From the IMG/VR virus record IMGVR_UViG_3300006104_000938, positions 1 to 23,686 of that record: a DNA stretch of 23,686 nt. One strand, given 5' to 3'. Below the pieces are notes generated by a model. That model saw only the letters and a list, made by a program, of their open reading frames with translations, was not told where the DNA came from and made no database searches. Made by a program: the position numbers and the translations under genes. The stretch is from a virus. Below, one piece after another: positions 8,658 to 23,638 of the stretch (positions within the stretch are counted from its first letter, which is position 1; each line of letters starts with the position of its first letter).

Positions 8658-8665
8658 TATAAATA
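8658..8665 (+). promoter_or_regulatory. T4-type late promoter TATAAATA
   Basis: An exact TATAAATA octamer three bases after the SpeD stop, matching the T4 late promoter used by the gp55-type sigma with its sliding-clamp activator. Predicted start is near 8671, leaving a leader of about 12 bases with a GAGGA ribosome site before ATG 8683. Unlike the other exact late octamers, I found no inverted repeat masking the ribosome site here. Confidence 0.75.
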
Positions 8666-8682
8666 TCTTACATGAGGACTAT

Positions 8683-8934
8683 ATGCCAGAATATGGATTT
8701 AGAAATAAAATAACCAAAGAAGAATGGATTCAACGCATGGGCATTTCAGAGATGGAAAAATTCATCGAAGAAAATCCAGATATTGAAACCTTTCCGAATG
8801 GTGCTCCGTTAATACATTCCGGTAGATCGCTGGGTGGTGGCTTGAAAGTCGATGGTGGCTTTAATGACCTACTAAAAACTATTAAAAAAGGAAACAGTAG
8901 AGGTATTACCCAGTCAAACATTGAGACCAAATAA
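8683..8934 (+). CDS. hypothetical 83-aa phage protein
   Basis: A small protein starting MPEYGFRNKITKEEWIQRMG, with FPNGAPLIHSGRSLGGGLKVD in the middle and DGGFNDLLKTIKKGN near the end. The ending resembles the tail of small phage proteins that carry an FmdB-like zinc ribbon at the N-terminus; here no cysteines are present, so any zinc site has been lost or the resemblance is weak. It sits directly under a late promoter with a clear GAGGA ribosome site, and 37 bases upstream of PhoH, with which it is probably co-transcribed. Function unknown. Confidence 0.7.
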   Translation: MPEYGFRNKITKEEWIQRMGISEMEKFIEENPDIETFPNGAPLIHSGRSLGGGLKVDGGFNDLLKTIKKGNSRGITQSNIETK

Positions 8935-8971
8935 TTTGTCATGTCCATTAAATCCAACGTAAGGAATTTCT

Positions 8972-9730
8972 ATGGCATCAGCAGAAAATCGTTTAACAAG
9001 AAAGCAAAGAAGAGCCTCAAGAAACGGAGAACAACCTCAAGACTATAAAAACAATCCACCTAAAGAAAGAGGATTGAATATCAAAACTATTATCCCTATG
9101 ACAAGAACACAGGATATTACTTTTGATGCTTTTGCTGATGATAAACATTTACTGCTTCATGGCTCTGCCGGAACAGGTAAGACATTTATTTCTATGTATC
9201 TTGCTCTGCAAGAAGTAATGAATCCAGAAAACGACGTTGAAAAGCTAATCATAATTAGATCAGTTGTACCTACACGCGATATGGGATTCCTTCCCGGAAG
9301 CGCAAAAGATAAAGCCAAGGTTTATGAGGCACCCTATTATAGCATTTGTACTGAACTGTTTGGTCGTGGTGATGCTTATGAAATTCTTAAGACTAAAGGC
9401 CTTATTGAGTTTCATACAACATCATTTATTCGCGGTATTACTCTTAGCAATTGCGTGGTCATTGTTGACGAAATGCAAAACTGCACAGAACAAGAACTAG
9501 ACTCAGTTATAACACGTATTGGTGAAAACTGCCGTATCATCTTCAGCGGCGATTTTAGACAATCAGACTTACAACGTGATAATGAAAGACGTGGAATTCT
9601 CAACTTCATGAGAATTCTAAAGAAGATGAATTTATTTGAAAACATCGAATTTACACGAGATGATATTGTAAGATCTAAATTAGTAAAATCTTATATCATT
9701 GCAAAAGAGGAATTACAAATACCTGCATAA
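8972..9730 (+). CDS. phoH: PhoH-like P-loop ATPase
   Basis: A 252-aa PhoH-family ATPase. Walker A is GSAGTGKT (64-71), Walker B is VIVDEMQN (163-170), and the sensor-like SGDFRQSDL (192-200) matches the superfamily 1-like PhoH core. The first 35 residues are basic and disordered-looking (NRLTRKQRRASR), a common phage variation. PhoH is widespread in phages infecting marine bacteria; its cellular role is unsettled, and RNA or phosphate-stress links are only proposed. Start from a TAAGGA ribosome site. The stop overlaps the exonuclease ATG (TAATG), indicating coupling with a DNA-processing enzyme. Confidence 0.95.
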   Translation: MASAENRLTRKQRRASRNGEQPQDYKNNPPKERGLNIKTIIPMTRTQDITFDAFADDKHLLLHGSAGTGKTFISMYLALQEVMNPENDVEKLIIIRSVVPTRDMGFLPGSAKDKAKVYEAPYYSICTELFGRGDAYEILKTKGLIEFHTTSFIRGITLSNCVVIVDEMQNCTEQELDSVITRIGENCRIIFSGDFRQSDLQRDNERRGILNFMRILKKMNLFENIEFTRDDIVRSKLVKSYIIAKEELQIPA

Positions 9731-10404
9731 TGTTTAACCTTGAATTAGTAAATCATGAAAATATAATTACAACTGAAAAGGATGGAAAGCGCTTATACCA
9801 ATTACCTACTGGTGAGCGCTTTCCATCTGTAACTACCGTATTAGGTCATACCTCTGATAGCACATGGCTCGAGGAATGGCGTGATAAAGTTGGACACGAA
9901 GAAGCCGATAGAATTGGTAGATTGGCCGCAGCAAGAGGAACAGTTCTTCATCTTGCATGTGAGCAATATGTTATGAACCAACAACAAGATCAAATGAACC
10001 CATTTATCAAGATGCTCTTCAATCAAGTCAAGCCAATTCTTGATTCTCGATTAGCTACAGTGTATGGTTCTGAAGTACCATTATATTCTCGGCATCTCCG
10101 GCTTTCTGGAAGATGCGATCTAATTGGTCGGTTTGATGATAAGGATTCTATCATCGACTTCAAGACGACTAATTGGTTTAAGAACGAAGATGATATGACC
10201 GACTATTATATCCAAGAATCTTGTTATGCGGTTATGTTTGAAGAGGTATATGGTCGTCCTATTAGTCGTATCGTTACAATCTCAGTCGGTGAATCTGAGA
10301 TTGGAGCCCAGGTTATCATCAAGAAGCGAGATGACTACATTGATAAGGCAATTGCTCGCATAAAACTTTTTTATGAAAAATTTGATTTTTTGGGTTTACA
10401 ATAA
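9730..10404 (+). CDS. RecB/Cas4-like PD-(D/E)XK exonuclease
   Basis: A 224-aa single-domain nuclease of the RecB/Cas4/MGME1-like group. Order of motifs: PSVTTVL (32-38), RGTVLH (69-74) with His74, GRCD (127-130) with Asp130, IIDFKT (141-146) with Asp143 and Lys145, then QESCYA (162-167) giving the Q-x3-Y motif. These are the metal-binding and catalytic residues, all present. It should degrade DNA ends during recombination, repair or host DNA breakdown. Its ATG sits in the PhoH stop (TAATG). A 13-bp perfect inverted repeat lies inside the coding sequence about 50 bases after the start, and the promoter for the next gene begins within the last codons. Confidence 0.9.
   Translation: MFNLELVNHENIITTEKDGKRLYQLPTGERFPSVTTVLGHTSDSTWLEEWRDKVGHEEADRIGRLAAARGTVLHLACEQYVMNQQQDQMNPFIKMLFNQVKPILDSRLATVYGSEVPLYSRHLRLSGRCDLIGRFDDKDSIIDFKTTNWFKNEDDMTDYYIQESCYAVMFEEVYGRPISRIVTISVGESEIGAQVIIKKRDDYIDKAIARIKLFYEKFDFLGLQ
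9781..9827. repeat. 13-bp perfect inverted repeat inside the exonuclease gene
   Basis: GATGGAAAGCGCT at 9781-9793 is the exact reverse complement of AGCGCTTTCCATC at 9815-9827, with a 21-base loop. It encodes residues around the DGKRLYQLPTGERFPS segment. There is no T-run after it, so it is not a standard terminator. It could fold in the mRNA shortly after the start codon; whether it matters is unknown. Confidence 0.75.
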
Positions 10405-10423
10405 TTATTTTTATTGATATAAT
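10395..10423 (+). promoter_or_regulatory. sigma70 promoter with extended -10 (DUF932 gene)
   Basis: TTTACA at 10395-10400, 17-base spacer, TATAAT at 10418-10423 preceded by TGA. One mismatch to the -35 consensus, none in the -10. Predicted start near 10430, leader about 30 bases with AAAAGGA before ATG 10461. An 8-bp inverted repeat (TTGGGTTT 10390-10397, AAACCCAA 10436-10443) flanks it. Confidence 0.85.
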
Positions 10424-10460
10424 AAGAATATAAGCAAACCCAACCAAAAGGAAATACATT

Positions 10461-11423
10461 ATGTCTCACGAAATTGAATTTGTTAACGGCAAGGCTCAAA
10501 TGGCTTATGCTGGTGAAGTTCCCTGGCACTCTTTGGGAACTCAAGTTCCTCCTGATCTGACTCCCGAGCAGATGCTTGAGGCTGCTGGTCTGGACTGGAT
10601 GGTTCGTAAGTATCCTCTGTATGCTCAAATTGCTGGCAAGCAAGTTGAAACTACTCAAATGGCTCTCGTCCGTGAAACCGACAATAAGATTCTGTCGATT
10701 GTTTCCGAGTCGTGGAATCCTCTGCAAAATCATGAAGCCTTTGAATTCTTCAATGAATTCATCGAAGCTGGTGATATGGAAATGCATACCGCCGGTTCCC
10801 TGAAGGGTGGCCGTCAAGTATGGGCTCTTGCCAAGATCAAGGATTCATTCTTTGATCTGTTTGGTGGTGACCGAACTGAAGGGTACCTGCTCTTCTCTAA
10901 TCCTCACCAGTTTGGTAAGAGCATCGATGTCCGCTTTACCAGCGTCCGTTGCGTTTGCAATAACACGGTCTCGTTTGCTCTTGAGTCTAATTCTTCCAAC
11001 TCCATCGCGATCAATCACCGTAGCGTGTTTGATCCGGTTTCTGTCAAGGAAACCCTTGGTATTGCTACTGGCAAGTTCCAGAAGTACAAGGAAATGGCTC
11101 AGTTCCTCGGTACTCGTAAGTACAATGAAGAAAACATTGTCGAGTACTTCAATCGAGTCTTCCCTCTGACCACTGAAACTAATAAGTCAAAGAAGCCTGT
11201 TTCTCGAGCAGCTCGTCTTGCTCTTGATGTTCTTGACACTCAACCCGGTGCTGAGTTTGCTCCTGGTACCTGGTGGAATGCCTTCAATGCTGTTACCTAC
11301 CTGACTGACCACAAGCTCGGTCGCTCGGCCGATACTCGCATGTCGTCTTCGTGGTTTGGTAGCAACAAGGACCGCAAGATCAAGGCTCTTAACACAGCCA
11401 TGGAGTTTGCTGAAGTTGCTTAA
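10461..11423 (+). CDS. DUF932 phage/plasmid-like protein
   Basis: A 320-aa member of the DUF932 (TIGR03299-type) family found in phages and plasmids. Recognisable blocks are PWHSLGT (21-27), DWMVRKYPLY, SESWNPLQNHEAFEFF, GGRQVWALAKI, FSNPHQFGKSIDVRFTSVRC, VCNNT and the late TWWNAFNAVTYLTDH. The function is unknown, but such genes are often strongly expressed early. That fits here: a near-consensus sigma70 promoter, a good ribosome site, and a GC-richer, evidently translation-adapted codon choice (32 of 60 bases G/C in line 10921, against 15 of 60 in line 15781). It is followed at once by a long hairpin and late promoter, so it seems to be a single-gene early unit. Confidence 0.9.
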   Translation: MSHEIEFVNGKAQMAYAGEVPWHSLGTQVPPDLTPEQMLEAAGLDWMVRKYPLYAQIAGKQVETTQMALVRETDNKILSIVSESWNPLQNHEAFEFFNEFIEAGDMEMHTAGSLKGGRQVWALAKIKDSFFDLFGGDRTEGYLLFSNPHQFGKSIDVRFTSVRCVCNNTVSFALESNSSNSIAINHRSVFDPVSVKETLGIATGKFQKYKEMAQFLGTRKYNEENIVEYFNRVFPLTTETNKSKKPVSRAARLALDVLDTQPGAEFAPGTWWNAFNAVTYLTDHKLGRSADTRMSSSWFGSNKDRKIKALNTAMEFAEVA

Positions 11424-11427
11424 TTGA

Positions 11428-11477
11428 ATATGCTCCGTAGGTTCCTATAAATATAATAAGCAACCTACGGAGCATAT
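11428..11477 (+). promoter_or_regulatory. 16-bp ribosome-site-masking hairpin around a late promoter
   Basis: Left arm ATATGCTCCGTAGGTT (11428-11443) is the exact reverse complement of AACCTACGGAGCATAT (11462-11477). The 18-base loop contains TATAAATA. The right arm includes the CGGAG Shine-Dalgarno (11468-11472) of the gene at 11481. RNA reading through from DUF932 would fold and hide it; RNA from the late promoter (start near 11459) lacks the left arm. It is not an intrinsic terminator, since no T-run follows. Confidence 0.88.
11446..11453 (+). promoter_or_regulatory. T4-type late promoter TATAAATA
   Basis: An exact late octamer in the loop of the 11428-11477 hairpin. Predicted start near 11459, three bases before the right arm, so the late transcript keeps the ribosome site but not its masking strand. 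Drives the 74-aa gene at 11481 and probably the two genes after it. Confidence 0.82.
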
Positions 11478-11480
11478 CTT

Positions 11481-11705
11481 ATGCAGAATGATCTTCTAGC
11501 AAAATTCCTTCCGGATGTCTTAACTAGACAAGAGATGCCAGAATGGTTTATACATATTGCCGACTCTAGATCTAAAGGCAGATGTGAATTTATCGTCTGG
11601 GATCATGAGGATGAAAAGATCATCCATGCTGATTTCTGGAAAGATGACGAATTCCATGAAACAAAAACTTTTCAGATTAAATTAGATTACACTAGAAAAG
11701 ATTAA
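11481..11705 (+). CDS. hypothetical 74-aa late protein
   Basis: A small protein starting MQNDLLAKFLPDVLTRQ, then MPEWFIHIADSRSKGRCEF and a beta-rich second half with DHEDEKIIHADFW and FQIKLDYTRKD. It has no recognised family, no membrane segment and no zinc motif. Start is defined by CGGAG with an 8-base spacing. It is controlled by the late promoter and masking hairpin directly upstream, so its product appears to be kept off early and made late, which suggests a virion, assembly or lysis-timing role. That role is inference from regulation only. Confidence 0.75.
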   Translation: MQNDLLAKFLPDVLTRQEMPEWFIHIADSRSKGRCEFIVWDHEDEKIIHADFWKDDEFHETKTFQIKLDYTRKD

Positions 11706-11723
11706 ATTAAAGGATATTATATT

Positions 11724-11984
11724 ATGGCAGTTTCAACTCGTAAGAACTACACCTCTAAGGGCACTCACAGTTCTGTTTCTCGTGGTATTACCCAGGCAGT
11801 TCGGGCAGATCGTACTCGTCTCGAGAAGCTTGAGTTTATTCATGATGCTTGGAAGAAGCTTCAGAACCCTTGGGTAACCATTGAAAACCCAGATAAGAAT
11901 GCTACTAACCGTCGTCATATTAAGGTTCGTGCCAATGATCTGTGGGGCAATCCAAAGATCAAGAAGGAAGAACCCACGGGATGA
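11724..11984 (+). CDS. hypothetical 86-aa basic phage protein
   Basis: A basic protein, with MAVSTRKNYTSKGTHSS at the start, a helix TRLEKLEFIHDAWKKLQNPW in the middle, then TNRRHIKVRANDLWGNPKIK. The NPWVTIENPDKN segment followed by a basic strand reminds me of small conserved proteins in other T4-like phages, but I cannot name the family. It follows the 74-aa gene after 18 bases with an AAGGAT ribosome site and no new promoter, so it is probably late. It may bind nucleic acid given its charge. Confidence 0.75.
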   Translation: MAVSTRKNYTSKGTHSSVSRGITQAVRADRTRLEKLEFIHDAWKKLQNPWVTIENPDKNATNRRHIKVRANDLWGNPKIKKEEPTG

Positions 11985-12145
11985 AGCTTGTTCCCATTGC
12001 GCTTCTTCTCATATTTGCTTCTAATGCTGCAATGTTTTATGAAGCTGGAAAATATTCTAATACCGGTATGGGAAAGCTAGCCTGTGTGGTGTTTATGCTA
12101 AGCAATTTTGTTGGAATTTATCTGACGGTTGTAAATTTTCTATAA
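11981..12145 (+). CDS. hypothetical 54-aa two-helix membrane protein
   Basis: Start chosen at ATG 11981, which overlaps the upstream stop (ATGA); an earlier in-frame ATG at 11942 would run 40 bases into the preceding gene and add only polar residues. The protein has two hydrophobic segments, about residues 3-17 (LVPIALLLIFASNAA) and 30-53 (ACVVFMLSNFVGIYLTVV), joined by a short polar loop. It is most likely an inner-membrane protein. A holin-like or superinfection role is possible but there is no specific motif. It shares the late unit starting at 11446. Confidence 0.7.
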   Translation: MKLVPIALLLIFASNAAMFYEAGKYSNTGMGKLACVVFMLSNFVGIYLTVVNFL

Positions 12146-12152
12146 AACCTAG

Positions 12153-12181
12153 TTTACATTAATTCGTCTCCGTGGTATAAT
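12153..12181 (+). promoter_or_regulatory. sigma70 promoter with extended -10 (metallopeptidase gene)
   Basis: TTTACA at 12153-12158, 17-base spacer, TATAAT at 12176-12181 preceded by TGG. Predicted start near 12188. The spacer contains CTCCGT (12168-12173), the reverse complement of ACGGAG (12188-12193), which is the ribosome site of the next gene; two G-U pairs could extend it. Read-through RNA could be masked while RNA from this promoter could not. Confidence 0.83.
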
Positions 12182-12200
12182 GAATTAACGGAGGTATCAT

Positions 12201-12665
12201 ATGAAAATACATATCTATAACATCAAAAACACTAATGGTATGGTAACTCGCTCGAAAGTTATTTCTGCGATGAAGTTTTATGCCAGTAAACTTATGACAC
12301 ACCGATTGTCTGATAGTCTGACTGTCTTTGTTAGATTTAAGACTGACATTCCATATGCCGGTTTGTGTACATGGTTGGATGAACCTCGTCGACCAAAAGA
12401 ATTTGCTATTACTATTAATCCGGATATGGCAGATGATCCTATTGAACAAACTCTTGCTCATGAAATGGTTCACGTAAAGCAATACGCTAAGGGTGAACTT
12501 AAAGATCTTCTTTCATATCCGGATCTTGTTGTCTGGCAAGGCAGCAGAAGGCATTGCGACAATGATGGTGCAGACTATATGTCTCTGCCATGGGAAATTG
12601 AAGCTTTCGATAAAGAACGTACGTTATATCTCGAATACATGTCTAACAATGGGAGAAAATTCTAA
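12201..12665 (+). CDS. HExxH zinc metallopeptidase-like protein
   Basis: A 154-aa gluzincin-type protein. HEMVH (87-91) gives the two zinc His ligands and the catalytic Glu88; the third ligand is likely Glu132 or Glu134 in PWEIEAF (130-136), which follows after about 43 residues. The spacing and small size resemble SprT-like and DUF45-like phage metalloproteins. No signal peptide is seen, so it should act in the cytoplasm, possibly in proteolysis of host or phage proteins; the substrate is unknown. A strong ACGGAGG ribosome site lies about 7 bases before ATG, under a near-consensus sigma70 promoter, so it is probably an early gene. The stop overlaps the next ATG (TAATG). Confidence 0.83.
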   Translation: MKIHIYNIKNTNGMVTRSKVISAMKFYASKLMTHRLSDSLTVFVRFKTDIPYAGLCTWLDEPRRPKEFAITINPDMADDPIEQTLAHEMVHVKQYAKGELKDLLSYPDLVVWQGSRRHCDNDGADYMSLPWEIEAFDKERTLYLEYMSNNGRKF

Positions 12666-12859
12666 TGAACACTATGAATGATGTAGTTGATATTGCAGAA
12701 ATTGATCTTGAAGAAGTTGAAACTAAAGAAATTCTTTATTTCAATTCTTATGATGAGGTTAGAAACTTTGTAAGACAAAAGCCAACATATTCGGCCAATA
12801 TCAGTTATTATGAACCTTCTCTTCAAGCTTGGGCAATGGTGATTAATCATGACCAATAA
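12665..12859 (+). CDS. hypothetical 64-aa acidic protein
   Basis: A small acidic protein beginning MNTMNDVVDIAEIDLEEVE with a compact second half FNSYDEVRNFVRQKPTYSAN. It has no known family. It starts in a TAATG overlap with the metallopeptidase and overlaps the next gene by 11 bases, so it belongs to the same early unit. Early acidic proteins of this size in phages often bind host factors, but nothing in the sequence shows which, if any. Confidence 0.68.
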   Translation: MNTMNDVVDIAEIDLEEVETKEILYFNSYDEVRNFVRQKPTYSANISYYEPSLQAWAMVINHDQ

Positions 12860-13223: not shown

Positions 13224-13229
13224 TTAGGT
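13213..13229. terminator. weak hairpin at convergent gene ends
   Basis: ACCTAA (13213-13218) and TTAGGT (13224-13229) form a 6-bp stem with a 5-base loop spanning the adjoining stops of two convergent genes. It could serve both strands as a weak terminator, but it is short, AT-rich and lacks a clean T-run on either side. Confidence 0.3.
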
Positions 13230-14174
13230 TATTGTGTTGACGTCTTCTTCTCTATTACGAAGATAATTATCAAAATGTCTTTCCAAATCTGGCTTATTAC
13301 CAGCAAATTCAACTACGCCATGGCTATTCTTTATGATGTCAAGAAGAGGATTAAACTCATGCATCATGAACATATCCCATCTTGAAATATATCCACGATT
13401 GCCTTTACGGCCATGGAACATATGTTCAATAGTACCAGGTACATAACCAATCTTAAAATTGATAGCCTTAGTAGCTCGTACTTGCCATGCTTGTAATAGC
13501 TGCTTATAGCTATCATGGGCTACCTTTGGAATGCTTCTTTCCCAAGATCCAACTAAACACAGAGCCATATGATGGTCACCAGAACCCATGGCGGCAAACT
13601 CAATAAGTCCACCAACCGCATCTAGAGCTTCTCTTCTCCAGGCCCATGCATAACCAGGATGTGGGTAATCATATGGTCCGCTATTAAATTTCCAGAAGTT
13701 TGCTCCCTCAGGAACTACAGGAAGTCCAGCATGGAATATAGAAGCAAAGCTTTTATGAACTTGCATATGAGCATCTGCAGGACCAAGATCATATGCATAT
13801 GACCAAGGTTGAACTACTGGATAAATTTGTAAGGCATTAAGAGTATCCAAGGCCCATGTATCTTTTCTGAAAAGGATATCTGCATCTAAGAATGCAATGT
13901 ACTTGGCATCATCTGGAAGACGTGTTAAGCCAAGGTTTAAAAGATTTTCTTTATTCCACACTAATGTTTTAGCTCTTACACCAAGATGATTAACACCAAG
14001 TTCAGTAAGATATTCTAGATCGTGTGGTCGATCTCCAAAAGCGCATTCTACTAAAGTAATGCTTACACCAGCTTTTAACCAACTTTTAATAGCAATATCT
14101 GCTAAAGCAATTCTTGATTTCCACATAATAGGATTTGAAATGCAAGTAACAACATGAAGATCCGAAGGTTGCAT
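13224..14174 (-). CDS. GT-A glycosyltransferase (minus strand)
   Basis: A 316-aa GT-A protein and the only gene on the minus strand. It has FLDADI (95-100) as the DxD motif (Asp97, Asp99), then GYAWAWRREALDAVGG (174-189) and GSGDHHMA (197-204), the acceptor-side block of the galactosyltransferase-like GT2/GT7 group. It should transfer a sugar from a UDP-type donor. It has no signal or membrane segment. It lies apart from the 5' sugar cassette and in opposite orientation, which suggests separate acquisition or separate regulation. Its promoter must lie in 14175-14281; I see no consensus sigma70 site on that strand, only weak candidates. A weak GAGATC site precedes the ATG. Confidence 0.85.
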   Translation of the reverse strand: MQPSDLHVVTCISNPIMWKSRIALADIAIKSWLKAGVSITLVECAFGDRPHDLEYLTELGVNHLGVRAKTLVWNKENLLNLGLTRLPDDAKYIAFLDADILFRKDTWALDTLNALQIYPVVQPWSYAYDLGPADAHMQVHKSFASIFHAGLPVVPEGANFWKFNSGPYDYPHPGYAWAWRREALDAVGGLIEFAAMGSGDHHMALCLVGSWERSIPKVAHDSYKQLLQAWQVRATKAINFKIGYVPGTIEHMFHGRKGNRGYISRWDMFMMHEFNPLLDIIKNSHGVVEFAGNKPDLERHFDNYLRNREEDVNTIT

Positions 14175-14238
14175 AATGATCTCATATATTAAAAGGTTAA
14201 TGATCGTATAAGTATTTACGGATTTACAAAATTAACTA

Positions 14239-14267
14239 TTGACATTTTTATATAAATTTTGTATTAT
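14239..14267 (+). promoter_or_regulatory. sigma70 promoter (gene at 14282)
   Basis: TTGACA at 14239-14244, 17-base spacer, TATTAT at 14262-14267 (one mismatch to the -10). Predicted start near 14274. That leaves only about 8 bases before ATG 14282, or about 20 bases with a GGAGG site before an AUU codon at 14294. It lies in the 107-base divergent gap after the minus-strand gene. Confidence 0.72.
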
Positions 14268-14281
14268 AGTTTTATAACATT

Positions 14282-14824
14282 ATGGAGGCTACCATTAATA
14301 TTTTCTATATTGACCGCGATCCTACACAAGCTGCTCAATGGATGGTTGATAAGCATGTTGTAAAAATGATTCTAGAATCTGCACAGCTTCTGTGTACAGC
14401 TCATCGTGTACTTGACGGGGATGAGTATATTGATCTATCTCCTGCAGGTCGTCGTATCAAGCGCTGGCGTCTTAATGATGCTCGTGATGAAATTATGTAT
14501 TATGCTACACATATCAATCATCCATCTGCAGTATGGATTCGTCAGTCTGTATCCAACTATCAGTGGCTTGTCGATCATTTCTTTGCTCTTAATCAAGAAT
14601 ATACATACCGATATGGTAAAACTCATAAGTGCTATGAGCTAGGTTATTATATGCAGTCACCTCCTTTCAATCTTAAGGAATGGGATTTTACTGAACCGCC
14701 TCCTGCAATGGCTCCTGAATATATTGTTTCTAAGGATGCTGTTGAGAACTATCGTAACTATTACAAGGTCGGTAAGGCCCGTATGCACTCATGGAAGATG
14801 CGTGAACCACCGCCGTGGATCTAA
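14282..14824 (+). CDS. conserved phage protein, INIFYxDxDP family, unknown function
   Basis: A 180-aa protein with NIFYIDRDPTQAAQW, then DKHVVKMILESAQLLCTAHR, NHPSAVWIRQS, EYTYRYGKTHKC and YRNYYKVGKARMHSW. I recognise this layout from a family common in T4-like and other phages, with no established role. The start is doubtful: homologues as I recall them begin at MNIF, which corresponds to ATT 14294 here, and a perfect GGAGG (14284-14288) sits 5 bases before that codon while nothing precedes ATG 14282. The true start may therefore be an AUU. The gene is under its own sigma70 promoter and is followed by a late promoter/hairpin, making it a one-gene early unit. Confidence 0.85.
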   Translation: MEATINIFYIDRDPTQAAQWMVDKHVVKMILESAQLLCTAHRVLDGDEYIDLSPAGRRIKRWRLNDARDEIMYYATHINHPSAVWIRQSVSNYQWLVDHFFALNQEYTYRYGKTHKCYELGYYMQSPPFNLKEWDFTEPPPAMAPEYIVSKDAVENYRNYYKVGKARMHSWKMREPPPWI

Positions 14825-14827
14825 TAA

Positions 14828-14852
14828 TATAAATATCCGAAAGAGGATATTT
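14828..14852 (+). promoter_or_regulatory. late promoter overlapping a ribosome-site hairpin
   Basis: TATAAATA at 14828-14835. AAATATCC (14831-14838) is the exact reverse complement of GGATATTT (14845-14852), with a GAAAGA loop; the Shine-Dalgarno AAGAGGA (14841-14847) lies half in the loop and half in the right arm. Predicted start near 14841, so late RNA lacks the left arm and leaves the site free, while RNA read through from the early promoter at 14239 can fold it. Confidence 0.8.
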
Positions 14853-14854
14853 TC

Positions 14855-15922
14855 ATGGCTAAATCTACTCAAGAATTTAAGGCTTTCGGTGAACAGCTCA
14901 ATAAATTACTGAAGCCATATAATTATAAAGTAGCAGATACTTCTCCAGCTGGTAAGCCTGGAAAGAATAATACTAGAGAATTTAGACTTCAGCTAATTGA
15001 TAAGCAAAGAAATACTTCAAAGGACTTAATTGATAAGTTTTCAGGTGTTTTAAAGAAAGCTTATCCAAAAGGACGAGTTCAATTCAATAAGCTTTCACCA
15101 AATAGTTCAAAGTTTTCTAGCTATACTTTAGAATTAGATTCAACAAAAATGGATTTAGTTATAGCTCAAGGCGCCAATAAGGGTGAAAAGTTTGAGCAGA
15201 TAATGGTTGATGCATATCAAAAAGCATTTTCCAAAAGCAGATTTGATCCAAAAATGGCTCAATTAATAGAATTAATGAATTCAGAAAATAAAGATTTTGC
15301 ATCAACAGAAATTATACGCGTTGAGCAGCGTAAAGGCTCTACTGCTAAACAAGGTATACCTTTAGAAAGATTAGGTGAAGTTATTGGTGATATCATATTA
15401 ACAGATAGCACAAATAAAAGATGGTATGTATCTCTAAAGAATAAAGATGGTGCTACTATTGCTAATGGTTTACCAGGTGGATCTACTATTTTTAATAATG
15501 AAGGGACCCTTGATCCACAATCAAAGGGTTCACAATTTTTATTAATGTTTGGTGTAGACTTAAACCGAGTACAAGCTGGATTTGATTTAAGAAATAAAAT
15601 TACTACACCTAGATTAGGACTTCCAGGAAGCAATGGTATTCCTTCAGACACTTCTAAAATTAAAGAACTCTTTAAACAAATTTGGGGAATGAACTATTTT
15701 TACGTTAGAGAAAAGACTAATGGTTGGGAAGTCCATTGGATAGATTCAAATTACTTAAATAAATTAACATCTGGAATTAAAGTTACAAATATTAGATATC
15801 CTGGAATAAACACAAAAACTATTACAATAGAATGCGAAAATAGTACAAAAAAATATATGATAGAAGTCCGCAATACAAAAGGCGGCGAATATCCAAATGA
15901 TATTAAGGTTAGATTACGATAA
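14855..15922 (+). CDS. late phage protein, possible PD-(D/E)XK fold
   Basis: A 355-aa soluble protein under a late promoter. In the middle, GEKFEQIMVDA (110-120) is followed by GDIILTD (178-184) and RWYVSLKNKDG (189-199). An acidic residue on one strand and an SLK on the next is the layout of PD-(D/E)XK nucleases (Asp179, Ser193-x-Lys195), with Glu111 as a possible third residue. The usual Glu or Asp before the Lys is Ser here, so activity is uncertain. The C-terminal 90 residues look like a separate beta-rich domain (WEVHWIDSNY, NIRYPGI). Role in packaging, head processing or DNA handling is inference. Its stop lies in the next late promoter-like sequence. Confidence 0.72.
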   Translation: MAKSTQEFKAFGEQLNKLLKPYNYKVADTSPAGKPGKNNTREFRLQLIDKQRNTSKDLIDKFSGVLKKAYPKGRVQFNKLSPNSSKFSSYTLELDSTKMDLVIAQGANKGEKFEQIMVDAYQKAFSKSRFDPKMAQLIELMNSENKDFASTEIIRVEQRKGSTAKQGIPLERLGEVIGDIILTDSTNKRWYVSLKNKDGATIANGLPGGSTIFNNEGTLDPQSKGSQFLLMFGVDLNRVQAGFDLRNKITTPRLGLPGSNGIPSDTSKIKELFKQIWGMNYFYVREKTNGWEVHWIDSNYLNKLTSGIKVTNIRYPGINTKTITIECENSTKKYMIEVRNTKGGEYPNDIKVRLR

Positions 15923-15943
15923 ATAACTATATATTAATTTGGA
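15892..15943 (+). promoter_or_regulatory. late promoter-like site with a weak masking stem
   Basis: GATAAATA at 15918-15925 differs from the late consensus by one base. TCCAAAT (15892-15898) can pair with ATTTGGA (15937-15943), which covers most of the TTTGGAG ribosome site of the gene at 15951. Predicted start near 15931 lies between the arms. A 7-bp stem with a 38-base loop is weak, so this is a lower-confidence case of the pattern. Confidence 0.5.
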
Positions 15944-15950
15944 GCTTATA

Positions 15951-17117: not shown

Positions 17118-17120
17118 TTT

Positions 17121-19310
17121 ATGGCACAGTTTACACTTTCAAATAATGCTTTTATAGCATCTAATAAAAGTATTTTTGATGTAAATATGATTGCATCTGA
17201 AGATGGTAATGTTATTTCAAACACTAATCCTCTTCCAATTAATCTTGTAGCTGGTGGAACAGTTTCTATTTCTGGCCCAATTAGTGTTACTGTCGGCAAT
17301 GTTGGAATAATTCACAGCAATGGTACGCCTATTACAAATGCTGCACCATTAGATGTTAAACCAATTGCAAATAGTTCTGTATATGTAAACGGTGGAAATA
17401 TTAATATTGGGAATTATCCACTTACACAGAATGTTTCATTTAGTAATCAGTCTGTTACAGTTGCTAATGGTTATATTAGTGTCAATAATCTTCCTGGAAC
17501 ACAAAACGTTTCATTCTCTAATCAATCAGTTACTATTTCTTCAGGAACAGTAAGTGTAAATAATCTTCCAACTACTCAGAATGTTTCATTCTCTAATCAA
17601 ACAATAACTGTTTCTGGTGGAACTTTAAATGTTAGCAATTTCCCAGTTACACAAAATGTTTCATTCTCTAATCAAACAATAACTGTTTCTGGTGGAACTT
17701 TAAATGTTAGCAATTTTACAGTTACACAAAATGTATCTTTTGCTAATCAGTCAGTAACAGTTTCTGGAAATATTGCTGGAATTACAAATACTGTTACTGT
17801 ATCAGTAAATAATTTTCCAACGACTCAAAATGTAAATGTAACATTTCCAACCACGCAAAATGTAGCTTTCTCTAATCAATCCATTACAGTTTCTGGTGGA
17901 AATATTAATATTGGCAATTATCCAGTTACACAGAATGTTTCTTTTTCTAATCAATCAGTGACAATTTCTTCTGGTACTATATCAGTAAATAGTTTTCCAG
18001 CTACACAGAATGTTCAAGTTCTTTCAAATACTAGCAACTATGTATATACACAATTTGCTCCAACTTGGTCATTAGATGCACTTAGTAAAGTTAGAACTTC
18101 AACTACATTAAATCAAAATTGGTATGTTCCAGTTATTGATGATGACACAAATTTTAGATGGTCACAAACACTGGCGGGCACTGCTGCAAATAGTACTTTT
18201 GTTTCTAATACAAATGAAATTATTTTACAAAGTGGACTGAGTGCAATTGGATCTGTGGCAAGACAAACTTATGAAAAATTTAAGATTATTCCAGGAACAT
18301 CACATACAGTTTATACTACAGTAAACTTTACAGCTAATACTACAGAATCTGGTGTTACTCGCCGTACTGGAATGTTTAGTAATACAAATGGAATATTTTG
18401 GGAACAAGGTGGTGTTTCTGCAAATACATTAGCCGTCGTTGTAAGAAGAAGACAAGCAAATGGTAATGTTATCGAAGATAGAACTTATGCAAATGCATTT
18501 AGTGTTGATAAATTAGATGGTACAGGACCATCTGGATTTAATATTTTCAGTGCAGGATTAAACAAATATTATACTTTTTGGTTTGACTTTATTGGCGGTA
18601 GAACGGGACGTATTCGTTTTGGTATGGGTACTCCACTTGGTCCACAAATTTGCCATGTTCAAAGTTATACTGGTACTGTTAATACTACATTTATTACAAA
18701 TAATTCTTTGCCATTGCGCCGTGAAATCTTTAATTCATCTTCGCAAACATCAACACCAACATTTGGAATGTCTGGTATTTCTTTTCAATCAGAAGCTCCA
18801 GCAGTATTTAATCCTTCACCAACCACAGCATATAATATTACACCATATACTCCAAATACTACATTGACACCAATTCTATCTATCGGTCTTCGTTCTGGAG
18901 AACCATATGTATTCAGTGATATATCTCCAGAACAACTTTTATTAGCTGATATTAATAACCAAGGAAAAAATAGTAGTCCCGGAACATTCTTATATGTACT
19001 TTTGTATAATGCAAATGTAAATGGTATTCCAGTATATTCTAATACAACTATTAGTGCAAATTGTGGTAGATCTTCTCAATATTGGGCCTGGCCAAATACA
19101 GCTACTGTATCAGGAGGTCTTCAAATATTCTCAGGCATTACTCAATCTGGAACTGGAGCATCTTCATTTCAAGCTTTGCCAACAACATATAATCTAGGAT
19201 CAGATATAAATGGAAATCCGGCAACATTAACTTTAGCAGTACAGCAAGTAGCTGCTGGAGGTTCAGCGGCAGGATTAGTAGCAACATGGAATATAATTGA
19301 ACAATTATAA
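17121..19310 (+). CDS. repeat-rich tail fibre/virion surface-type protein
   Basis: A 729-aa beta-rich protein. Residues about 92-300 hold about eight copies of a roughly 25-residue unit built on TQNVSFSNQSVTV and VNNLPT, two of which are almost identical in DNA. The following domain (about 310-560) contains GVTRRTGMFSNTNGIFWEQG, DGTGPSGFNIF and a FDFIGGRTGRIRFGMG strand pattern that I recognise from phage fibre-like structural proteins; a lectin-type jelly-roll is possible. The last 160 residues are a further beta-rich domain. The layout suggests an elongated stem with a host- or glycan-facing head. It starts after an AGAGGAT site and ends in a late promoter. Confidence 0.75.
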   Translation: MAQFTLSNNAFIASNKSIFDVNMIASEDGNVISNTNPLPINLVAGGTVSISGPISVTVGNVGIIHSNGTPITNAAPLDVKPIANSSVYVNGGNINIGNYPLTQNVSFSNQSVTVANGYISVNNLPGTQNVSFSNQSVTISSGTVSVNNLPTTQNVSFSNQTITVSGGTLNVSNFPVTQNVSFSNQTITVSGGTLNVSNFTVTQNVSFANQSVTVSGNIAGITNTVTVSVNNFPTTQNVNVTFPTTQNVAFSNQSITVSGGNINIGNYPVTQNVSFSNQSVTISSGTISVNSFPATQNVQVLSNTSNYVYTQFAPTWSLDALSKVRTSTTLNQNWYVPVIDDDTNFRWSQTLAGTAANSTFVSNTNEIILQSGLSAIGSVARQTYEKFKIIPGTSHTVYTTVNFTANTTESGVTRRTGMFSNTNGIFWEQGGVSANTLAVVVRRRQANGNVIEDRTYANAFSVDKLDGTGPSGFNIFSAGLNKYYTFWFDFIGGRTGRIRFGMGTPLGPQICHVQSYTGTVNTTFITNNSLPLRREIFNSSSQTSTPTFGMSGISFQSEAPAVFNPSPTTAYNITPYTPNTTLTPILSIGLRSGEPYVFSDISPEQLLLADINNQGKNSSPGTFLYVLLYNANVNGIPVYSNTTISANCGRSSQYWAWPNTATVSGGLQIFSGITQSGTGASSFQALPTTYNLGSDINGNPATLTLAVQQVAAGGSAAGLVATWNIIEQL
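17394..18020 (+). repeat. tandem ~75-bp coding repeats in the fibre-like gene
   Basis: About eight in-frame units of roughly 25 codons (TQNVSFSNQ...). The units starting at 17581 and 17656 are exactly 75 bases apart and identical over about 60 bases, so a recent duplication is likely. Units near 17750-17850 are irregular, including a short TQNVNVTFPT unit. Such repeats can change stem length by recombination. Confidence 0.85.
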
Positions 19311-19344
19311 ATATAGTATGAATTAATCTTAGGAATATTCCATG
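19285..19344 (+). promoter_or_regulatory. late promoter within an inverted repeat covering a start codon
   Basis: TATAAATA at 19306-19313 overlaps the fibre gene stop; predicted start near 19319. CATGGAATAT (19285-19294) is the exact reverse complement of ATATTCCATG (19335-19344), whose last three bases are the start codon of the next gene. GGAATATTCC (19332-19341) is also self-complementary. Read-through RNA could hide the start; late RNA lacks the left arm. Confidence 0.7.
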
Positions 19345-20607
19345 GGCAGCTTAGTAGATCGTATCAAAATAAAACTACAGTTATCTAAAGGTGGAAAGAA
19401 GTCCATGTTAGGTTCTGAGTTAGATGATATTGAAATTAATCCATTTACTCGTGGAATTAAAGAAGAAGCTCAGCCTAAAGAAAAACATACTGTATTCACA
19501 TTTGGTAGATTTAATCCTCCACATGCTGGTCATGAAAAATTAATCAATAAAGTAAAAGACGTTGCTGCTCAACATGGAGCAGATCATATGATTTTTACTT
19601 CTCATTCACATGATAGATCTAAAAATCCACTTCCGCATGATGAGAAAGTTGGATTTATGAAGAAGATTTTTCCTAATACAAATATTCATGATAGTTCAGA
19701 ACATCCAATAAAGACTGCTTTAGATGCTGTTAAGCATTTAAGTAGAACTGGTACAACACATGCTACATTTGTTGTTGGTCAAGATCGTGTAGATGAATTC
19801 CATAATCTACTTCACAAATATAATAAGCACCCATCTGATCCTGATTTTGATCCTAATAAGCATTATCATATTCCACATCTTAATGTAATCTCAGCTGGAC
19901 AAAGAGATCCTGATGCTGAAGACGTTACAGGCGCATCTGCTTCAAAGCAACGTGAGCATGCACAAAATAATAATTTTAAAGGCTTCCATGGTAATATGCC
20001 AGCAGGAACTTCACATGAAGATTCACGAGCTTTATTCCATGCTGTCCGTCATCATATGGGTATTCATGAAGCTTTTGTTCATTATGCACCAGCTACAACA
20101 AAAGTTAAAAGCGGTCTTTCGCCTGAAGCAGAACAACGTACTAAAGACTTTGCTGCTAAAGCTAAAGCAGATATTCAAGCTGCCCGCCGTGAAGATCAAC
20201 ATGGACGTAGAACTGCTAAGCCAGTTAAATATGATGTAAAGCCAACTAAAACGCCAGTTGCTCCAAAGTATATGCCAGCAAGTATGGCACAAAATCCATA
20301 TGAAGAGCGTCAGTTTATAATTCGTTATAAGCGTGATAACATGGCTCCAGGTAAAAAGGCTTTTGATATTGGCTGTGATAAAGATCTTAATGATAAAGAT
20401 GTTGATAATCAATTACCGCGTCGTCAAGGAATTAAACGCTTTAAAACGTTTGTTGAAGATGGGTATGATCCAGGTTCATCTATTACTATGCAAGGATCAC
20501 AACAAGATCTTGGACCAAATGTACCTACAGTGAGAAAATTAAAAGGCCCTGTGTCATTAATGTTAAACCGTAGTAATGGTAAACCAGAGAAGGTAGGAAA
20601 TGCCTAA
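19342..20607 (+). CDS. cytidylyltransferase-like nucleotidyltransferase
   Basis: A 421-aa protein. FGRFNPPHAGHEKL (54-67) contains the HxGH active-site motif (His61-Ala-Gly-His64) of the HIGH nucleotidyltransferase superfamily, and GASASKQREHA (197-207) sits where the family carries its second, ISSTxIR-type motif. Such enzymes join CMP or AMP to a phosphorylated small molecule (glycerol-P, choline-P, heptose-P, pantetheine-P). Residues 240-421 are a charged, disordered-looking tail unlike cellular enzymes, perhaps for virion or partner binding. The start is fixed by TTAGGAA before ATG. It overlaps the next gene by 8 bases. Late expression suggests a role in virion modification or host metabolite use; the substrate is unknown. 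Confidence 0.8.
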   Translation: MGSLVDRIKIKLQLSKGGKKSMLGSELDDIEINPFTRGIKEEAQPKEKHTVFTFGRFNPPHAGHEKLINKVKDVAAQHGADHMIFTSHSHDRSKNPLPHDEKVGFMKKIFPNTNIHDSSEHPIKTALDAVKHLSRTGTTHATFVVGQDRVDEFHNLLHKYNKHPSDPDFDPNKHYHIPHLNVISAGQRDPDAEDVTGASASKQREHAQNNNFKGFHGNMPAGTSHEDSRALFHAVRHHMGIHEAFVHYAPATTKVKSGLSPEAEQRTKDFAAKAKADIQAARREDQHGRRTAKPVKYDVKPTKTPVAPKYMPASMAQNPYEERQFIIRYKRDNMAPGKKAFDIGCDKDLNDKDVDNQLPRRQGIKRFKTFVEDGYDPGSSITMQGSQQDLGPNVPTVRKLKGPVSLMLNRSNGKPEKVGNA

Positions 20608-21856
20608 ACCCCTTAACGAGTTAGGAATGTTTAATGAACCATCCCTGGGAACATCTGATGAAAAACCTTCTGCTTTTGACTCAAGTCAAATCGCTTCTGC
20701 TGTTCCTTCTATCCAAATTCGACGTAAATCAAAAAAAGCAATAAAAGACTATAAAGTGGAGAACCCGATGGACGAAGAAAATAAACTGCTTACTTTCAAA
20801 GAGTTACAAGAAAAGCGTGGACTCTGGGATAACATTCATGCAAAGCGAGCGCGCATTAAGCATGGATCTGGAGAGCATATGCGTAAGCCGGGTTCCAAGG
20901 GTGCTCCTACTGCTGCAAACTTTAAGGCAGCTCAAGAAGAAGTTGATGCTGAAGGTGAAATGGCAGCAAATCAACTTTCAACTGCTGAACGTGCTGCCAA
21001 AACTCTTAAAGGTAAAATGAGTAAGAATACTCAATTGCCTGCATGGCTTCAAGCTAAAATTACCAAGGGTTCTGGTATGCTTGATGCTGCTTCTGATTAT
21101 ATGGCTAGTAAAGTTAAAGAAGAAATAGTATCTGAAGGTCCATTCTCTCAGGGGTATTTAAAAGCTACACAAAAGATGATAGATCAATCTAAGGCTGGTG
21201 GTGTTACATCAACTATTAGAGATAAAGATGAAAAGGGTACCTATACTCAAGTCACTAAAAATGGTGTACCCGGTCCTAAGGTATATGAAAGCATTCGTAT
21301 GGGTCACAGAGGAATCAAACCTGTTGAAAAAGATCCAGGTAAGAAAGTAGCATTCAAGAAAGTCAATAGTGCTGATGCTTTCAAGGCTGCTCTTGCTAAA
21401 GCCCGTGCTAAGAAGATGGAAGAATCTGCCGAACAGATTGATGAACTATCTCCTCAATTCTATGCAGCTGCTGATCGTGGTGATAGTACAAAGCGCAATA
21501 AGCCAAAGCCAGCAAAGTTAAAGTTCTATAGTAAGCCAGCAATGCCTATCAATAATAAACCAGCTCCTGCAATGGAAGAAACACTTACTGAACGCGGTGC
21601 AGATTCAAAGGGGTACTTCAGATCTACTGAAGCTGGTGCAGGTCTGACTGCTAAAGGTGCTGCTCACTTCCGTAGACAAAATCCAGGCTCAAAGCTTTCG
21701 ACAGCAGTAACTGAAAAGAATCCTAAGGGTAAGAGAGCTGCTCGTCGTAGATCTTTCTGTGCTAGAATGAGTGGAATGCCAGGTCCTATGAAGGATGAAA
21801 AGGGTAGACCAACTCGTAAGGCCATGTCACTTCGCCGTTGGAGATGCAGAACTTGA
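20600..21856 (+). CDS. DUF6321-like late phage protein
   Basis: A 418-aa basic, low-complexity protein. The C-terminal 90 residues hold KGYFRSTEAGAGLTAKGAA, RRQNPGSKLSTAV and SFCARMSGMPGPMKDEKG ending in LRRWRCRT, the pattern I associate with the phage DUF6321 family. The N-terminal part has KRARIKHGSGEHMRKPGSKG, and several alanine/lysine-rich helical stretches lie between. It is probably a virion-associated or DNA-binding structural protein made late; the two C-terminal cysteines (SFC and RWRC) may form a metal site, which is inference. AGGTAGGA precedes the ATG. Its end overlaps the Dps gene. Confidence 0.68.
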   Translation: MPKPLNELGMFNEPSLGTSDEKPSAFDSSQIASAVPSIQIRRKSKKAIKDYKVENPMDEENKLLTFKELQEKRGLWDNIHAKRARIKHGSGEHMRKPGSKGAPTAANFKAAQEEVDAEGEMAANQLSTAERAAKTLKGKMSKNTQLPAWLQAKITKGSGMLDAASDYMASKVKEEIVSEGPFSQGYLKATQKMIDQSKAGGVTSTIRDKDEKGTYTQVTKNGVPGPKVYESIRMGHRGIKPVEKDPGKKVAFKKVNSADAFKAALAKARAKKMEESAEQIDELSPQFYAAADRGDSTKRNKPKPAKLKFYSKPAMPINNKPAPAMEETLTERGADSKGYFRSTEAGAGLTAKGAAHFRRQNPGSKLSTAVTEKNPKGKRAARRRSFCARMSGMPGPMKDEKGRPTRKAMSLRRWRCRT

Positions 21857-22287
21857 GTAATTTAATCGATGAAATGAAAGTCTTTGAAGCAAATGCATTT
21901 TGCTTTTATTTGAATCTTCACTACTTTCATTGGAATGTAGAAGGTCAAGACTTTTATCAATATCATAAGTTCTTTCAAGAGCTATATGAAGAAGTGCATG
22001 ACTCTGTTGATAATATTGCAGAGCATATCCGCGCATTAGGTGCTTATGCTCCAGGTACAATAAAGCGTTTCATGGATTTATCTGAGTTAGAAGAAACAGA
22101 AAAGGTTCTTGATATCAAAGAAATGCTTAATGCGCTTATCAGTAATAATGATATAGTTATGGCATCAATTAAACGAGCTTTAAAAGAAGCATCTACTGCA
22201 AATGAACGCGGTGTAGAAAACTTTTTACAAGATCGTTTAGACAAGCATATGAAACATCAATGGATGTTAAAATCATCTAATAAATAA
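21844..22287 (+). CDS. dps: Dps-like ferritin-fold protein
   Basis: A 147-aa ferritin-like protein. Counting from ATG 21844, the ferroxidase residues are His29 (HWNV), His41 (YHKFF), Asp56 and Glu60 (DNIAE); the steps of 12, 15 and 4 residues equal those of E. coli Dps (51, 63, 78, 82). Dps proteins form 12-mers that bind iron, use up hydrogen peroxide and coat DNA. The start is uncertain: TTG 21838, ATG 21844 or TTG 21853. GGAG at 21840-21843 is well spaced only for TTG 21853, which also gives a TTGA overlap with the upstream stop. Its position among late genes suggests a virion or late host-DNA protecting role. Confidence 0.88.
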   Translation: MQNLSNLIDEMKVFEANAFCFYLNLHYFHWNVEGQDFYQYHKFFQELYEEVHDSVDNIAEHIRALGAYAPGTIKRFMDLSELEETEKVLDIKEMLNALISNNDIVMASIKRALKEASTANERGVENFLQDRLDKHMKHQWMLKSSNK

Positions 22288-22290
22288 ATA
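22279..22290 (+). promoter_or_regulatory. possible weak late promoter (AATAAATA twice)
   Basis: Two overlapping AATAAATA octamers (22279-22286 and 22283-22290), each one base off TATAAATA, at the end of the Dps gene and about 24 bases before the next ATG. This AT-rich spot could serve as a late promoter, but base composition alone makes such matches likely. Confidence 0.35.
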
Positions 22291-22313
22291 ATAATAAATT
22301 TTAGGAGCTTAAA

Positions 22314-23471
22314 ATGATCACTAAAGAAGAAATTGTTGTAGACATCGAAACACTTAGCACAGAAGAATTTGCTGAAAAATATAAGGACATCGATGTTCTT
22401 GCAATTCTCGATGAAGAAACTCTTGAAGAAGATGAAGCTCCAGTAAAGCGTGGTCGTGGTCGTCCAAAGGGTACAACAGGTATTCCTAAGCGTCGTGCAG
22501 GTGATTCAGAAGCTGAAAAGGCAGAACCACGTGGTATTACTCAGCAGTTAGGTCATGCTGCTGATAATCCAGAAGGTGCAAAGGTAAGATTTGCTTCTGG
22601 TGAAGTTCATCACGTTCGTCGCGCTGAAGCACATAAAGCTCTGCTTCATTTTGATAACGAGCATAATCAAAAGCCAGAAGCAAAGCGTAGATATCTTGCA
22701 AAGCTCGGTAAGAGCAAGGCTCATTTCTATGATGCTATGAAGACTGGTAAAGGCGATGAGCCAGCTGGTCCAAAGAAGATCTCGCTTGCTCGTGGTGCAA
22801 CATATGATCCAGCAACACGTCAATACTCAAAAGAAGAAGTTGAAATCTTTGGTGAAGCCGTTGACATGCATGGCTGGAATAAGATCAGCTCGCATAAGGA
22901 TCATACCGGCGAGATGTTCCACCTTCATAATAAGCCAGGTACTGATGAGCACGTATTAGTACATGCTGGTACTGGTGATATTCATCATGGCTTCCATGGT
23001 AAAACAAAGGATGTACATCACTTCCTGAAGAATTATAGCTTCAGCGATCTGCCACGTCCAACCAAGGAAGAAGCAGAACTTTCTCCAAAGCAAAAGAAGA
23101 TTGCTGCCATGTCTCCTCCTGCAGATAAGATTGATGCTGGCGATTTAGCTAAGCTTCGTCAAGGCAAGAAGATGCATGAAAAGTATGAAGATTCTGAGGA
23201 AGACGACAAAGAAGATAAGAAGATGGAAAAGAAAACCGGAATGTCTCATGATGAATGGGAAGCTTCGGATGAAGATAAAGAAATGGATAAGAAGGCTGAG
23301 AAGAAAGACAACGATAAGAAGTCTGACAAGAAGGATGCTAAAGAAGATGTAAATCCTCGCGTCCCAGGCTTTACTCATGGTCTTGCTAGTACTATCCATG
23401 AAATTATGAGTAAGAATATTGACCTGAGAAGAATGGCTTCTGAAGAAGAGTTTAAGAATCGTAATAAATGA
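22314..23471 (+). CDS. AT-hook-containing, charged late protein
   Basis: A 385-aa protein. An acidic N-terminus (about 1-42) leads to RGRGRPKG (46-53), an AT-hook that binds the minor groove of AT-rich DNA, apt for this AT-rich genome. A histidine-rich middle follows (VRFASGEVHHVRRAEAHKAL and LGKSKAHFYDAMKTG), then a compact GWNKISSHKDHTGEMFHLHN region, and a long acidic/basic low-complexity stretch (about 285-345) rich in DKK and EDD. The end is RVPGFTHGLASTIHEIM, resembling a short conserved phage tail motif. It is probably virion-associated and DNA-binding. TAGGAG precedes ATG. The stop overlaps the next ATG (ATGA). Confidence 0.72.
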   Translation: MITKEEIVVDIETLSTEEFAEKYKDIDVLAILDEETLEEDEAPVKRGRGRPKGTTGIPKRRAGDSEAEKAEPRGITQQLGHAADNPEGAKVRFASGEVHHVRRAEAHKALLHFDNEHNQKPEAKRRYLAKLGKSKAHFYDAMKTGKGDEPAGPKKISLARGATYDPATRQYSKEEVEIFGEAVDMHGWNKISSHKDHTGEMFHLHNKPGTDEHVLVHAGTGDIHHGFHGKTKDVHHFLKNYSFSDLPRPTKEEAELSPKQKKIAAMSPPADKIDAGDLAKLRQGKKMHEKYEDSEEDDKEDKKMEKKTGMSHDEWEASDEDKEMDKKAEKKDNDKKSDKKDAKEDVNPRVPGFTHGLASTIHEIMSKNIDLRRMASEEEFKNRNK

Positions 23472-23638
23472 TAGTAACTCTATCTCAAAAGGCCATGATT
23501 CTAGATTCTTCTAACACTGTGGTTAAACAACTGACTAATGGATCGACTAATAAAGTCATTATGGACCTAAGGCCGATCTTCTTTGTTAGAGATTCACAAT
23601 CTATTATAAATAGTACTAATAACAAAGGAGATAACTAA
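23468..23638 (+). CDS. hypothetical 56-aa late protein
   Basis: A short ORF that exactly fills the space between the AT-hook gene and the last gene, with an ATGA overlap at its start and a TAATG overlap at its end. It begins MIVTLSQKAMILDSSNTV and continues VKQLTNGSTNKVIMDLRP, FFVRDSQ, beta-rich with no hydrophobic segment. The 3' third of the gene also carries the late promoter and both arms of the hairpin for the next gene, so its codons are doing two jobs. Family unknown; a small virion or connector protein is a guess from context. Confidence 0.68.
   Translation: MIVTLSQKAMILDSSNTVVKQLTNGSTNKVIMDLRPIFFVRDSQSIINSTNNKGDN
23576..23632 (+). promoter_or_regulatory. 13-bp ribosome-site-masking hairpin around a late promoter
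   Basis: ATCTTCTTTGTTA (23576-23588) pairs with TAACAAAGGAGAT (23620-23632): 12 Watson-Crick pairs and one G-U. The right arm covers the whole AAAGGAG Shine-Dalgarno of the gene at 23638. The 31-base loop contains TATAAATA (23605-23612), with a predicted start near 23618, so late RNA lacks the left arm. Confidence 0.85.
23605..23612 (+). promoter_or_regulatory. T4-type late promoter TATAAATA
   Basis: An exact late octamer inside the 3' end of the 56-aa gene and inside the loop of the 23576-23632 hairpin. It is placed to drive the virion protein gene at 23638 with a leader of about 20 bases. Confidence 0.8.

Follow-up and report, generated by a model that had tools for sequence, protein, structure and literature searches.

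In bacteriophage T4, hairpins sequester the ribosome-binding sites of genes e, soc, 49 and I-TevI, with the late promoter lying between the two arms, and for e the effect is reported to be 100-fold (PMC3014915). Similar hairpins precede I-TevII, I-TevIII, segB and Aeh1 mobE; I-TevI also autorepresses at its own late promoter in T4, and a 2010 review states that the T4 genes so regulated are all late genes lying on long polycistronic early or middle transcripts (PMC2988022). Here we analyse hairpins at the late promoters of the virus in IMG/VR record IMGVR_UViG_3300006104_000938; the window, meaning the whole stretch of DNA analysed, is this complete record of 23,686 bases. An earlier note on this DNA had proposed that late promoters are generally paired with cis hairpins that insulate late genes from early read-through. 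The review's statement means that a restricted form of this idea has already been published for T4, so the mechanism is less new than the note supposed. What we find appears to be a mechanism already known, to which a distant virus adds new members; it does not amount to a genome-wide grammar. Late-promoter hairpins are likely to silence early read-through at early-to-late junctions of this virus, namely at 11446, 14828, 23605 and probably 19306 (sites are named by octamer position); 15918 is doubtful.

In the mechanism we propose, a T4-type late promoter would sit inside an inverted repeat, or form one of its arms, and the opposite arm would cover the ribosome-binding site or start codon of the late gene. 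Read-through RNA coming from upstream would contain both arms, fold, and keep ribosomes off the late gene, while RNA made from the late promoter would start in the loop, past the left arm, and be translated. Use of the hairpin would be confined to places where a late gene follows early genes and no terminator intervenes, rather than extending to all late genes; at one of these junctions an intrinsic terminator appears to take its place in other viruses. We infer that these promoters fire late, that read-through reaches the genes behind them, that the late RNA starts 6 nucleotides (nt) past the octamer and that translation is blocked in vivo; the position of the start follows from T4, where the late octamer occupies –13 to –6 relative to the RNA start (PMC1524935).

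The arms and their positions can be read directly from the window (Table 1). As the earlier note had it, inverted repeats spanning the predicted start occur at four of the five exact octamers, and 8658 is without one. Arms of 19 nt flank the octamer at 11446, and the Shine-Dalgarno sequence GGAG falls within their pairing; 16 bp of it are perfect, and no other perfect inverted repeat of the window is as long (four shuffles reach 9–11). Hairpin 2, at 14828, has 8 bp, and its left arm consists of the AAATA of the octamer plus TCC; hairpin 4, at 23605, pairs over 13 bp including one G-U. A search of Rfam matched no family.

For late and read-through RNA alike, we computed what energy it takes to open the ribosome site (–14 to +3), using shuffled sequence or real segments upstream as controls (100 shuffles per site, which sets a floor of P = 0.01). 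Closure gains in the read-through RNA were 18.4 kcal/mol at 11446, 9.7 at 23605, 9.3 at 14828, 5.2 at 19306 and 4.0 at 15918; at 8658 and 22283, which have no such hairpin, the gain was 1–2 kcal/mol. P-values were 0.01 for 11446 and 0.01–0.02 for both 14828 and 23605, and the combined value for the seven window sites was 0.0002 against shuffles and 0.0008 against real segments. Complementarity thus exceeds chance at 11446, 14828 and 23605, whereas 19306 is borderline and 15918 is not significant by itself. Applied blind to T4, the same test ranked e, I-TevI, I-TevII, 49 and segB at the top, all on the early strand; T4 soc was weak (+1.6 kcal/mol).

Two overlapping, near-identical contigs (99.97–99.99% identity) bring the virus to 52,313 bases, counted in window coordinates. 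Genes in the downstream extension match the PHROG families major head, head scaffolding and tail sheath, i.e. a T4-type capsid, scaffold and contractile sheath, and the capsid protein is 65% identical to that of Stenotrophomonas phage DLP6 and 61–62% identical to those of Sinorhizobium, cyanobacterial and Pelagibacter phages. Judged by these genes and identities, the window virus is a distant member of the T4 superfamily; no close isolate was found in the phage collection searched. No family match among the scanned window genes suggested a gp55-like late sigma factor, though it was not searched for by name and the record is fragmentary.

The earlier note was right about the four early-type promoters on one strand. 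All are on the + strand with 17-bp spacers; the – strand has no site matching at least 11 of 12 positions, and shuffles would lead one to expect 0.3 such sites (maximum 2) where the window has these four. Its late promoters also stood, with one omission, the overlapping octamers AATAAATA at 22279/22283. Exact TATAAATA occurs five times, always on + (8658, 11446, 14828, 19306 and 23605) and never on –. Shuffles contain it 1.95 times on average (maximum 6), so the count by itself is weak; each exact octamer, though, sits 25–36 nt 5′ of the start of an open reading frame (ORF), and further along the same virus, in the extension, TATAAATA stands ahead of the genes for capsid, scaffold and sheath. 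It is the position of the octamers rather than their count that, in sequence terms, marks them as candidate late promoters. The note's statement that good intrinsic terminators are lacking was borne out: the window holds 11 weak ones where 10.6 are expected, and a stricter scan of the 52 kb found none near any late promoter. The sole strong terminator in the 52 kb, at 42085 on the – strand of the extension, is found where the major capsid gene ends and faces the opposite gene block. Early-type promoters lie 0.6–1.7 kb 5′ of 11446, 14828 and 15918 with no terminator between, and the one nearest to 19306 is 5 kb away.

The nearest relative of the window virus, L008, has a DUF6267 protein 72% identical to that of the window and conserves part of this arrangement. 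A hairpin is present at its counterpart of the 14828 junction, though the protein encoded there is not detectably homologous, and at its counterpart of 23605, where the arm is shifted and altered; the counterpart of 19306 is closed by a different pairing with different arms. No hairpin was found at the L008 counterparts of 8658 and 22283. In viral contigs, the close relatives found for genes 11481 and 14855 were all near-identical copies, and the window hairpins themselves therefore gave no measurable covariation.

More informative was the junction at which gene 14855 sits, between early gene 14282 and the DUF6267 gene. We surveyed 18 loci at the same place, with synteny checked, that encode either relatives of 14855 or a second family (MSxxSDKYExDV). 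A late octamer is present in 18/18, and each locus has exactly one insulator. In 14 this is a terminator: 13 were found by the scan, just upstream, and one (L017: ACCGGC-TTAG-GCCGGT followed by TTTCTTTT) by eye, the tail rule of the scan having missed it. In the other four, namely the window, L008 and a related pair, L335 and L454, there is a hairpin and no terminator, and none of the 18 has both. Shuffled upstream regions of the junction gave 0/360 terminators, and in the three hairpin lineages an early-type promoter matching at least 11 of 12 positions lies within 1.7 kb upstream. So perfect an exclusion would arise once in 3060 were the 18 loci independent, which they are not. We read this exchange, terminator or hairpin but never both, as functional replacement: the junction would need insulation, whichever of the two devices provides it. 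Sequence-only structure prediction of the 14855 product was unusable (predicted local distance difference test, pLDDT, 39.5). The proteins L008 9255 (MSIASDKFEKD...) and G007 67237 (MSADSDKYEHD...) carry a motif, YSDVKV...WVEVKM, that resembles PD-(D/E)XK nucleases, with no family match.

Hairpin 2 is embedded in its promoter, and a pattern for this form (octamer plus YCC ... GGR plus TATTT plus ATG) matched at least 119 stretches in viral contigs, against 36 when the stem was broken. Among the matches listed, 74/84 with the stem and 10/36 with the broken stem lead an ORF, the free Y/R positions covary (T-A 26, C-G 25, T-G 5, C-A 1; P = 4e-10), and so do two inner pairs (P = 2e-4). The inner spacing of the family ranges from 4 to 12 nt, and T-runs are present in 19/60 elements. 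That the palindrome might yield divergent late promoters was considered and rejected, since an octamer on the opposite strand occurs in just 13/60 elements and not in that of the window. The element also precedes a conserved, structural-looking protein family starting MAVVQISRIQVRRGQ or MPIIEIAKIQVRRG (L234, L241, L247, L257, L262, L288 and others). Upstream regions of RusA-like resolvase genes were gathered by protein similarity and not by pattern; a helix of at least 5 pairs directly follows TAAATA in 46 of the 53 distinct regions that contain TAAATA. RusA-like genes with embedded hairpins include L238, L255, L289, L300, L472-L551 and S-PM2 115200, and many of these have T-runs or CTAAATA. 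Many RusA-like leaders end in T-runs, and such elements may also terminate transcription; it is possible that they combine promoter, terminator and ribosome-site lock. A limited literature search found nothing on the terminator/hairpin exchange or on the embedded family in cyanophages.

These T-runs bear on a competing explanation, in which the repeats are intrinsic terminators or 3′-end stabilisers of the upstream early mRNA and overlap the ribosome site only incidentally. The locations of 11446 and 14828, 5 and 3 nt past the stop codons of the upstream genes, are also what it would predict. However, no T-run follows the stem at any of the four window hairpins, and the terminator scan was negative at all late promoters of the window. 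At 19306 and 23605 the arms fall inside coding sequence or where it ends, with the right arm over the AUG or the Shine-Dalgarno sequence. We consider this explanation unlikely.

The stronger form of the proposal, that a cis hairpin insulates every late gene of this virus or of T4-like viruses and so provides a predictive grammar for annotation, draws on the hairpins at four of the five exact octamers of the window. Seven further late promoters, all in the extension, provide an out-of-sample test, which the proposal fails: no effect was seen (combined P = 0.36 and 0.93), and the rule is refuted for the 52-kb stretch. In T4, 5/14 early-strand sites and 0/14 late-strand sites reach 9 kcal/mol, gene 51 being nearest at 8.9. 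A wider, non-redundant set of 211 TATAAATA sites from viral contigs was gathered partly by a pattern requiring AGGAG 5–9 nt from the ATG and may under-sample the embedded type; in it, 26 late sites (12%) and 5 of 160 control starts (3%) exceed shuffles by at least 3 kcal/mol, with equal medians, and strong late sites amount to just 22/127 across 15 genomes or contigs. A general rule is thus highly improbable. Of the ideas in the earlier note, the enrichment of complementarity over shuffled controls holds for the window sites and fails for the seven outside. Likewise, the logic of letting transcription pass and blocking translation is upheld locally, by geometry, folding statistics, the T4 control, L008 and the terminator exchange, and not in general.

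Several observations weigh against even the local reading. The rule leaks, since 8658 stands 2.1 kb behind an early promoter with no insulator, and 9.4 kb separate 23605 from the closest early promoter. The codons under the left arm of hairpin 4 specify the same residues (Phe-Val) in L008, so coding constraint may explain some of the arm's conservation. The junction loci, being related, amount to about three hairpin and about eight terminator lineages, and in the set of 211, when longer loops were allowed, 3 sites carry a terminator and a hairpin together. Finally, 19306 (P = 0.03–0.11) and 15918 (P = 0.11) are both marginal.

The repeats could also be DNA-level dyads that serve as operators for a repressor of the late promoters, given that the arms flank or overlap the promoter and that I-TevI provides a precedent (PMC2988022). 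The four arms are, however, unrelated in sequence and differ in spacing, and what they have in common is complementarity to the ribosome site; the variable inner spacing of the embedded family is likewise unlike a protein-bound dyad. We give this possibility very little credence. Least probable of all is chance complementarity in AT-rich DNA, selected by the original search: the two marginal sites lie near the chance boundary and upstream arms swapped among 90 relatives give similar average pairing (exact TATAAATA sites had the higher scores, 18.1 vs 16.2, from which no strong conclusion is drawn), but the shuffle test reaches its floor at 11446, 14828 and 23605, and neither the junction survey nor the covariation of the embedded family fits with chance.

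Table 1. Predicted promoters, hairpin arms and associated genes (window coordinates)
Feature	Position	Strand	Comment
Early-type (sigma-70) promoter	6562..6590	+	12/12 match; precedes RNase H-like gene
Early-type promoter	10395..10423	+	11/12; precedes DUF932 gene
Early-type promoter	12153..12181	+	11/12
Early-type promoter	14239..14267	+	11/12; precedes gene 14282-14824 (phrog_624)
Late octamer TATAAATA, no hairpin	8658..8665	+	Gene 8683, phrog_385 'transcriptional regulator'; L008 also without hairpin
Hairpin 1 left (anti-ribosome-site) arm	11428..11446	+	Predicted missing from late RNA; 16 bp perfect
Late octamer TATAAATA, hairpin 1 loop	11446..11453	+	Predicted RNA start ~11459
Hairpin 1 right arm	11459..11477	+	Holds Shine-Dalgarno GGAG; ATG 11481
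ORF behind hairpin 1, 74 amino acids	11481..11705	+	
Late octamer TATAAATA	14828..14835	+	3′ part doubles as hairpin 2 left arm
Hairpin 2 left arm AAATATCC, promoter-embedded	14831..14838	+	Predicted RNA start ~14841, in loop
Hairpin 2 right arm GGATATTT	14845..14852	+	Part of Shine-Dalgarno AGAGG; ATG 14855
Gene for 355-amino-acid protein at early-to-late junction	14855..15922	+	Comparative survey locus
Weak left arm TCCAAAT	15892..15898	+	Pairs ATTTGGA 15937-15943 across Shine-Dalgarno; seven pairs
Late-type octamer GATAAATA	15918..15925	+	Precedes DUF6267 gene, ATG 15951
Hairpin 3 left arm CATGGAATAT	19285..19294	+	
Late octamer TATAAATA of hairpin 3 site	19306..19313	+	
Hairpin 3 right arm ATATTCCATG	19335..19344	+	Includes start codon 19342; ten pairs over AUG
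Two overlapping late-type octamers AATAAATA (22279/22283)	22279..22290	+	No hairpin; gene 22314; same in L008
Hairpin 4 left arm ATCTTCTTTGTTA	23576..23588	+	Within ORF 23468-23638
Late octamer TATAAATA in hairpin 4 loop	23605..23612	+	
Hairpin 4 right arm TAACAAAGGAGAT	23620..23632	+	Holds Shine-Dalgarno AAAGGAG; ATG 23638; L008 counterpart
Late promoters outside window	29433, 29776, 30792	+	Outside-window set: capsid, scaffold, sheath and others
Late promoters outside window	43518/43524, 44740, 46432, 50974	-	As above

Among other features, 8658-8934 is uninsulated in L008 as well, and the gene there may need to be made early too; a DsbA identity for gene 8683 is not claimed because BLASTP gave just an 11-residue match (E=0.025). 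A lone reverse gene (13224-14174, – strand, 316 amino acids), without PHROG or Pfam match, lies inside the forward early/late block. Self-matches revealed internal repeats of ~78–83% identity at 17424-17969 (ORF 17121-19310) and 25746-26664 (ORF 25286-27328).

Taken together, these data carry a classic timing device of T4 over to viruses only distantly related to it, supply a quantitative opening test that retrieves the established T4 cases blind, and replace the 'general rule' with a sharper statement about insulators at early-to-late junctions, where hairpin and terminator would be interchangeable. More broadly, early-to-late junctions in the T4 superfamily may pose a conserved insulation problem, solved interchangeably by terminators or by hairpins built from the late promoter, and in many uncultivated and cyanobacterial viruses one embedded element may act as late promoter, ribosome-site lock and possibly terminator, with the start in the loop; we regard this wider picture as evenly poised between true and false. 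Two points deserve further work, the covarying promoter-embedded form and the exchange of terminator and hairpin. Annotation pipelines may misread promoter-embedded hairpins as plain terminators.

Compared with T4 e, soc and 49, the window sites have the same design: a late octamer, a left arm before the late start, and a right arm over the Shine-Dalgarno sequence or AUG, set among early genes; the opening test places e and 49 in the top four T4 sites. The genes differ, and function is experimental in T4 and predicted in the window. Gene 49, controlled by such a hairpin, encodes a resolvase, endonuclease VII, of a family unrelated to the RusA-like enzymes, so that hairpin control of both would imply convergence. 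The leader of the RusA-like gene of cyanophage S-PM2, GATAAATAcctccatatggaggtttttt, resembles window 14828 in having a promoter-embedded hairpin over the Shine-Dalgarno sequence; leaders of this group differ in that many have T-runs and could also terminate, and some use the octamer CTAAATA, known from Aeh1 (PMC1524935). The layout of 14828 is that of I-TevI, in that the AAATA of the octamer and the following pyrimidines pair with the Shine-Dalgarno sequence and UAUUU. I-TevI differs from the window genes in being intron-encoded and autorepressed as well, and, unlike I-TevI, I-TevII, segB and mobE, the genes that the window hairpins would protect are not recognisable homing endonucleases.

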